A stretch of DNA of 64,000 nucleotides. Origin: Erwinia mallotivora (GTDB taxonomy: Bacteria; Pseudomonadota; Gammaproteobacteria; Enterobacterales; Enterobacteriaceae). This document shows positions 48,851-50,594 of this stretch, piece after piece. The notes beneath the pieces are model-generated. The model was not told the DNA's origin and made no database searches. It saw only the letters and a list, made by a program, of their open reading frames with translations. The stretch covers positions 1-64,000 of the forward strand of contig NZ_JFHN01000045.1 of the NCBI RefSeq assembly GCF_000590885.1, in the 5' to 3' direction. Made by a program: the position numbers and the translations under genes. Numbering within the stretch: position 1 is the stretch's first letter; each line of letters starts with the position of its first letter.

Positions 48851-49138
48851 TTAATGCTGTTTCAACTTGTCTTTATGTTTATTCAGTTGTCGGGTCAGCT
48901 TGTCAATCAAACCGTCGATTGCTGCATACATATCTTTCTCTTCGGAGGTGGCATGCAACTCGCCGCCGTTAACATGCAGGGTTGCGTCAGCGATTTGGGT
49001 CACTTTCTCAACCTTAAGCACTATATACACCTGGTTTATCCGGTCAAAATACTGCTCCAGTTTGGCAAATTTAGCCGTGACAAACTCCCTTAAAGGTTCA
49101 GTGATTTCTACATTTTGTCCGGTGATGTTGAGTTGCAT
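48851..49138 (-). CDS. hpf: Ribosome hibernation promoting factor (short HPF)
   Basis: Together with RMF converts 70S ribosomes into inactive 100S dimers in stationary phase. 95 residues, the short gamma-proteobacterial form. MQLNITGQNVEITEPLREFV is the N-terminal signature. It lies 22 bases after rpoN on the same strand. Confidence 0.97.
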   Translation of the reverse strand: MQLNITGQNVEITEPLREFVTAKFAKLEQYFDRINQVYIVLKVEKVTQIADATLHVNGGELHATSEEKDMYAAIDGLIDKLTRQLNKHKDKLKQH

Positions 49139-49160: not shown

Positions 49161-50594
49161 TCAGACCAGTTGTTTACGTTGGTTTGATGGCGGAATGGAT
49201 AAAGACTCTCGATACTTTGCGACGGTTCGCCGTGCCACCATAATTCCCTGCTCGGAAAGCAGAGTCGTCAGCTTACTGTCACTAAGCGGTTTGGCGGGAT
49301 TCTCCGCCGAGATTAATTTTTTCACCAGAGCACGAATTGCGGTTGAAGAGGCTTCCCCCCCCCCCTCCGTATTGACGTGGCTGGAGAAAAAATATTTCAG
49401 TTCAAAAATACCACGTGGGCTGTGCAAATACTTTTGCGTGGTAACACGTGAAATGGTGGATTCATGCATATCCACCGCACTGGCGATGTCTGCCAGTACC
49501 ATCGGGCGCATGAATTCTTCCCCCTGCTCAAAGAAGGCCTGTTGCTGATCGACAATGCAACGGGTCACTTTCAACAGCGTATCATTGCGGCTTTCCAGGC
49601 TTTTAATCAGCCACTTCGCCTCCTGCAAGTTGCTGCGAATAAACTGGCTGTCGTTATCATTGCGACCTGAACCGCCTAGCGATGCATAGTGCTGATTGAT
49701 CTTCAGTCGGGGGACGCTGTCCGTGTTCAGATCGACCGTCCAGCGCGTACCGACCTTACGCACCAGCACATCAGGAATAACATACTCAGGTTCGCTGGTA
49801 TTGATCGACTGGCCTGGGCGGGGGTCGAGCGACTGGATGAGTTGCATGGCGTTTTTCAGCACGTCTTCTTTCAGCCGCGTGACACGCATCAGGCTGCGGA
49901 AATCATGATTGGCCAGTAAATCGAGATGGGCGCTGACAATCAGCCGTGCTTCTTTGAGAAAGGGCAGGTCTTCTGCAAACTGGGAAAGCTGGACCAGCAG
50001 GCAGTCACGCAGATCGCGGGCACAGACACCAACCGGGTCAAAACGCTGCATACGTTTAAGAACGGCTTCAACCTCATCCAGCGTCAACTCTTCATTGCCA
50101 GTGCTTTCCAGAATCTCTTCCAGAGACACCGTCAGATAACCGGTGTCGTCTACCGCATCAACGATGGACGTCGCGATGGCGCGATCGGTATCAGTAAAAG
50201 GCGTCAAATCCACCTGCCACGTCAGATAATCCTGCAACGTTTGGGTGGTTTCTCCCTGATAAACGGGGAGTTCATCATCGTGATAATCGGTTCCGGTTCC
50301 GGAAGGGGTTCCCGCAGTGTAAATTTCGTCCCAGGTGGCGTCCAGAGGTAACTCTTCCGGCATATCCTTTTGTTCCAAAGCCTCACGCGTATCCAGCGAT
50401 TCCTTTTCCTCGTACTCTCGCGAGTCGACTTCCTCATGAATGTCGGTTTGCTCTAGCAACGGATTGCTTTCCAGCGCCAGCTGAATTTCCTGCTGTAGTT
50501 CAAGCGTAGAGAGTTGCAGCAGACGAATGGCCTGTTGCAGTTGTGGCGTCATGGCAAGCTGTTGGCTAAGCCTGAGTTGCAAACCTTGCTTCAT
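49161..50594 (-). CDS. rpoN: RNA polymerase sigma-54 factor
   Basis: Directs RNA polymerase to -24/-12 promoters of nitrogen, phage-shock and, in plant-associated relatives, type III secretion genes. 477 residues. Region I is Q/L-rich ([19 protein letters not shown]), region II is acidic, the core-binding region and HTH follow ([20 protein letters not shown]), and the RpoN box [10 protein letters not shown] is at 454-463. Residues 410-414 (EGGGE) are encoded through an uninterrupted run of 11 G (49355-49365), in frame here. One base less would stop translation after 423 residues, one more after 437; both lose the RpoN box. Confidence 0.97.
49355..49365 (-). repeat. Homopolymer of 11 G (C on plus) inside rpoN
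   Basis: Eleven consecutive C on the plus strand cover codons 410-414 of rpoN. The encoded residues (TEGGGEASS) are those of E. coli RpoN, but other glycine codons would break the run. Tracts of this length slip readily during replication in bacterial contingency genes. Confidence 0.9.

Follow-up and report, generated by a model that had tools for sequence, protein, structure and literature searches.

The rpoN gene of Erwinia mallotivora carries an uninterrupted run of 11 Gs that we consider, at a probability of roughly three in four, to be a species-specific, chance-born and slippage-prone tract in the gene for sigma-54; nothing indicates that it has been selected for switching. It lies in a window of 64,000 nucleotides (the whole stretch of DNA analysed here) from a draft genome of 4,640,069 bases (ca. 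4.64 Mb) in 75 contigs and is the sole G/C run of more than six bases in this window. An initial annotation had proposed the tract as a contingency locus that makes sigma-54 phase-variable. A slippage-prone site is indeed plausible given the known effect of homopolymer length, but an evolved switch is unsupported, since the run is absent from the other 35 genomes of the genus in which the site can be read, codon drift suffices to produce it, and housekeeping genes carry similar runs.

The G tract in rpoN and its predicted off-length alleles

The gene is intact and codes for a sigma-54 of 477 amino acids that is matched by NCBIfam NF004597 over residues 1-477 with 1002.8 bits, and its Pfam domains follow each other in the expected order of activator-interacting (PF00309, residues 5-48), core-binding (PF04963, residues 116-303) and DNA-binding domain (PF04552, residues 317-475). 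Residues 414-477 are those that align with 2mt3, a solved chain of the RpoN domain, which places the G tract where this domain begins. The features concerned, all on the minus strand, are the following:

49161..50594, minus strand: rpoN, RNA polymerase factor sigma-54, 477 aa, intact (open reading frame; NCBIfam NF004597)
49355..49365, minus strand: G11 tract, from the third base of codon E410 through G411-G413 to the first base of codon E414 (sequence)
49164..49355, minus strand: RpoN-domain coding stretch, residues 414-477, lost in both off-frames (2mt3 alignment; computed frames)
49206..49235, minus strand: RpoN box, residues 454-463 (position from computed frames)
48851..49138, minus strand: next open reading frame downstream of rpoN, 95 aa (list of open reading frames)

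On the plus strand, positions 49355-49365 read as exactly 11 Cs and thus as G11 on the coding strand of rpoN, where they occupy bases 1230-1240 of the coding sequence and form the codons GAG GGG GGG GGG GAA for E410-GGG-E414, just as the initial annotation had described. It had also equated the protein with that of E. coli RpoN, which is right insofar as the product is close to known sigma-54 but does not hold letter for letter: residues 410-477 differ at three positions from the best solved sigma-54 chain, 5ui8_M, against which (and not against a named E. coli RpoN) this closeness was judged.

As in contingency loci, a one-unit change of this in-gene repeat alters the reading frame. Our frame computation reproduced the annotated stops, with a product of 423 residues for a G10 allele, the final 10 of them aberrant, and one of 437 residues for a G12 allele, while G9 and G13 alleles would give 436 and 424 residues, respectively. 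The RpoN box, which has its role in recognition of the -24 element, starts at residue 454 as had been claimed and is missing from the computed products of both G10 and G12. Replication slippage at G11 would yield such alleles, and the resulting sigma-54 would keep its activator-interacting and core-binding domains but lose the RpoN domain and hence be inactive or interfering; off-length alleles could in turn revert. Polarity of a frameshift in rpoN could also affect the 95-aa open reading frame downstream, which we take to be hpf/yhbH-like from its sequence and the gene order. A second sigma-54 that might serve as backup was set aside, with only a single Sigma54_DBD match found genome-wide.

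That the length of the tract is a mere consensus or assembly artefact seems highly improbable. The source is a draft of 75 contigs, and poly-G artefacts are obvious in some other drafts of the genus (G035 and G025; see below), but 11 Gs keep the exact reading frame, with the 477-codon frame and the E-GGG-E motif preserved as in relatives, whereas an error in length would break the frame two-thirds of the time; the tract also lies inside its contig and is flanked by normal coding sequence.

The tract among relatives and among other long runs

The site is readable in 36 of 37 genomes of the genus, the exception being G004 with only a partial match to rpoN, and the G run measures 11 bases in the genome studied here (G000), 8 in G014 and no more than 5 in the remaining 34. 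A comparison of glycine codons across the genus, as the initial annotation had suggested, therefore found the long run nowhere else. In a sample of the family, the EGGGE pattern was matched in 66 of 198 genomes with six bases as the longest other run, and a run of at least 8 at this site occurs in 2 of 392 family genomes, namely G000 and G014. The retention across related species that is expected of a contingency locus was thus not seen in this purely between-species comparison (at least 9 Gs in 1 of the 36 readable genus genomes), and a genus-wide rpoN switch was set aside on the basis of the 36 genus and 392 family genomes, the run not being common to relatives.

A tree of rpoN sequences places G000 together with G024 and G026 (support 1.0), and the rpoN of the named Erwinia aphidicola together with G036 (flagged as 10% contaminated) and G005. 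The expected start was obtained for 31 of the 32 loci compared, and divergences refer to rpoN genes of equal length, i.e., without G022, G002 and G035. Even in G024, the nearest compared relative, 37% of the third positions and 43% of the fourfold sites of rpoN are different, so that four silent changes at the site are ordinary.

The distribution among relatives also bears on slippage at the level of RNA, by which RNA polymerase or the ribosome would make both full-length and truncated sigma-54 from a fixed allele. This process requires above all a long monotonous run, and stops soon follow in both off-frames, but the run is not conserved among relatives and slippage on bacterial transcripts has been documented mainly on A/T runs, leaving it a very doubtful explanation.

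Chance as the source of the run can be judged from the other long runs of the genome, which holds nine G/C runs of at least 9 bases (two of 11, one of 10 and six of 9). By inspection of open reading frames and family scans, three of the 9-base runs fall on glycine triplets, in the genes for xylulokinase and TrkH and in a filamentous-haemagglutinin-repeat gene, and the remaining ones apart from rpoN look intergenic or like leader sequence (the names xylulokinase, TrkH, aspartate-tRNA ligase and RpiA are from NCBIfam, and the filamentous-haemagglutinin repeat and patatin domain from Pfam). As a null model, we redrew synonymous codons by genome usage in 313 mechanical open reading frames of at least 150 codons, leaving out rpoN, from a sample of 464 kb (the window and twenty 20-kb stretches, a tenth of the genome) and scaled the result to the genome with an assumed coding share of 86%. 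The expectation per genome is 10.6 coding runs of at least 9, 1.7 of at least 10 and 0.53 of at least 11 bases, the last value being based on only 7 simulated events and replacing the 1.2-1.8 of an earlier redraw that had included rpoN. Observed were 4, 1 and 1, respectively, so that no excess of long coding runs over this null was found; these assignments were made from open reading frames, with short frames over the runs labelled C29 and C72 taken as non-genes and an 11-base run on contig C62 counted as leader, which if coding would raise the runs of 11 in genes to 2.

Coding runs of at least 7 bases are in fact depleted, with 6 observed against 16.3 expected and none of 150 redraws reaching so low a number. 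A different picture emerges from an order-3 Markov model fitted to the actual sequence, which predicts 0.21 runs of at least 11 genome-wide against the 2 observed (Poisson P ~0.02). Within rpoN, 4 of the 19 glycine codons are GGG and 3 of these 4 lie in the tract, a clustering that has a probability of 0.004 by chance when calculated post hoc within this gene. Whether G11 beats chance therefore depends on which null is used. Because the codon-redraw null shows no excess while runs of at least 7 are depleted, G11 has persisted in a genome that elsewhere avoids runs of this kind; it is not improbable and needs no special cause.

The 11-base run on contig C62 is a C11 (G000:C62:12518-12528; L154:1519-1529) that is followed within a few bases by a GGAG-like site and the likely TTG start of a gene for a patatin-like phospholipase (Pfam PF01734 and PF19890), which we take to be yjjU-like with the start likewise assumed. 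As a candidate for tuned expression, this leader run may be superior to the tract in rpoN.

Comparable runs are widespread in the genus, where at least 29 of 37 genomes have runs of at least 10 Gs. We examined 30 loci from the genus run list, besides inspecting 20 chosen stretches, and found the run within a mechanical open reading frame of at least 100 codons at 10 of them; 8 of these 10 runs read as GGG, among them the rpoN tract described here and two entries for one and the same tract. In G022, the gene for aspartate-tRNA ligase has a G10 run in the motif EVGGGS (G022:C48:19600-22700, L169, run at 1497-1506), and the nearest relative G024 has a G10 run on a glycine triplet of rpiA. Loss of aspartate-tRNA ligase would be lethal, and in this genus a G10 run within a gene therefore does not indicate a switch. 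For a G10 tract in G002, no counterpart was found in the four other genomes checked.

Runs of C17 and C16 in G024 (G024:C1 and G024:C40; L157 and L159) lie beside short or degraded-looking open reading frames and may be real switches, decay or artefact. In G009, a 16-base run (G009:C15:143200-146300, L163, at 1501-1516) is read as proline at the 3' end of an open reading frame for a LysR-family regulator, where a change in length would alter the tail only. Finally, the G20 and G36 parted by TN in G035:C11 (L166) and the G18 with which a contig of G025 ends (G025:C30, L160) look like the poly-G sequencing or assembly artefacts of public drafts.

Taken as a true contingency locus, the G11 tract would be maintained by selection and give rise to a sigma-54-off subpopulation, affecting nitrogen, psp and possibly hrp genes, that is reversible by slippage. 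We regard this as rather unlikely given the absence of the run from the other 35 readable genus genomes, its prediction by codon drift (0.53 expected, 1 observed), the comparable runs that sister species have in the genes for aspartate-tRNA ligase and RpiA, and intact mismatch-repair genes; loss of sigma-54 should moreover be costly via the control of glutamine synthetase. In its favor, the off-frames truncate the protein cleanly, the gene is the single sigma-54 match of the genome and G11 has survived despite the depletion of long coding G/C runs. Poly-G switches described elsewhere, for example in the maf genes of Campylobacter jejuni, have lengths in the same range (available text of PMC7677240), and according to the accessible part of a review rpoN of E. 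amylovora is required for the expression of hrpL and type III secretion genes (PMC8657755). A variant of this idea, a recently born reversible sigma-54 switch, is likewise improbable; slippage at G11 would then regularly produce sigma-54-off cells, in which the truncated factor with its core-binding domain may interfere with the intact one, and the population would be mixed in nitrogen, stress and possibly plant-interaction traits.

A T-to-G hotspot as possible origin of the run

Under the preferred reading of a chance-born run, G11 would be the product of silent substitutions at the third codon positions of a conserved Gly-Gly-Gly where the RpoN domain begins. What such changes may look like is illustrated by two closely related genomes of the genus in a gene that we take to be fadJ-like, where a glycine triplet is spelled with a G10 run in G005 (C1:276763-277372; L121/L201) and as GGGTGGTGGT in G036 (C18:368494-369103; L202). 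The two stretches are 98% identical with 11 mismatches in 610 bases, and three of these are T/G differences in three neighbouring glycine codons.

We compared the two genomes more broadly in an alignment of 268,629 bases at 98.7% identity, composed of BLAST pieces of at least 1500 bases and at least 93% identity. T/G differences per T site amount to 24 in 1543 after at least three shared Gs and to 567 in 112,535 after zero to two, a 3.1-fold difference (P ~3e-6) in what is an unpolarised comparison of one genome pair. With T/C differences as the reference, T/G differences have an odds ratio of 2.8 relative to sites preceded by one or two Gs (P = 0.0004, or 0.0006 without the fadJ-like sites), though the effect is weaker relative to all sites with zero to two Gs (odds of 1.8, P = 0.03). 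This one unpolarised pair of the genus thus shows more T/G differences on the 3' side of G runs than at other T sites, as a T-to-G hotspot would leave behind.

Such a hotspot has been described as the GnT motif, at which a T following a G run mutates to G more than 1000-fold more often in the strongest contexts, and the available text of the same study attributes an A688C mutation in rpoN of Pseudomonas fluorescens to this motif (PMC12344412). The excess between G005 and G036 is in line with the published hotspot, and the three clustered differences in the fadJ-like gene are apparently a trace of it. At rpoN, the hotspot probably helped to move GGT GGT GGT toward GGG GGG GGG, with each new G easing the next step. 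The run may have grown partly through this hotspot, but the nearest relatives spell the glycines at the site as GGC and GGA, not GGT, a codon that is present there in other members of the genus such as G036. We infer the order of these substitutions as well as the slippage rate and the phenotype of the tract.

Slippage-prone and phase-variable tracts in known systems

The genes mutS, mutL and mutH are present as open frames of 858, 632 and 229 codons, respectively, with no internal stops, and a mutator background was set aside on these grounds. In Vibrio, the indel rate climbs with homopolymer length and loss of mutS results in ca. 100-fold more indels (available text of PMC5854121). Genes of Pseudomonas aeruginosa hold fewer long G:C runs than expected, and how readily these runs mutate depends on their length, as far as the accessible text of that study goes (PMC3837008). 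The G11 run is therefore very likely a mutational weak spot. A slippage rate for a G run in a mismatch-repair-proficient enterobacterium was not found in the partial texts covered by our literature search.

Variation of the tract would mean that a single site could switch an entire regulon in a genus associated with plants. A tract of fixed length would instead be a clear case of neutral codon drift, with the T-to-G hotspot perhaps as its driver, that has put a run prone to frameshifts into a core regulator, and would warn against reading a contingency locus into each long G tract.

The titles and beginnings of abstracts by which the literature search was judged revealed no enterobacterium with a phase-variable rpoN. 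The nearest precedent in the literature searched is C. jejuni, of which evolved lines have lost rpoN and where rpoN is among the genes mutated in short A/T tracts, according to the available part of that study (PMC7677240). The poly-G maf loci described there resemble the rpoN tract as coding G runs in which a one-base change truncates the product in a manner that is reversible in principle, but their length variation is documented, whereas the rpoN tract is known from one genome sequence. C. jejuni furthermore is without many repair systems (PMC7677240), while mutS, mutL and mutH are intact in this genome, and in contrast to maf the run described here lies in a core regulator gene and is not common to relatives.

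The counter-selected G:C repeats of P. aeruginosa are alike in that long coding G:C runs are depleted there as they are here and the survivors are prone to mutation, though those runs drove adaptation in infections with mutators (as far as the text available of PMC3837008 covers), and the tract in rpoN is known from a single genome sequence. The GnT hotspots of Pseudomonas and Salmonella, finally, share with the pair of Erwinia genomes the T-to-G change at the 3' end of G runs, but the published effect, as given in the accessible text, is polarised and strand-specific (PMC12344412), whereas that of the Erwinia pair is unpolarised, about threefold in size and seen at sites other than that in rpoN.
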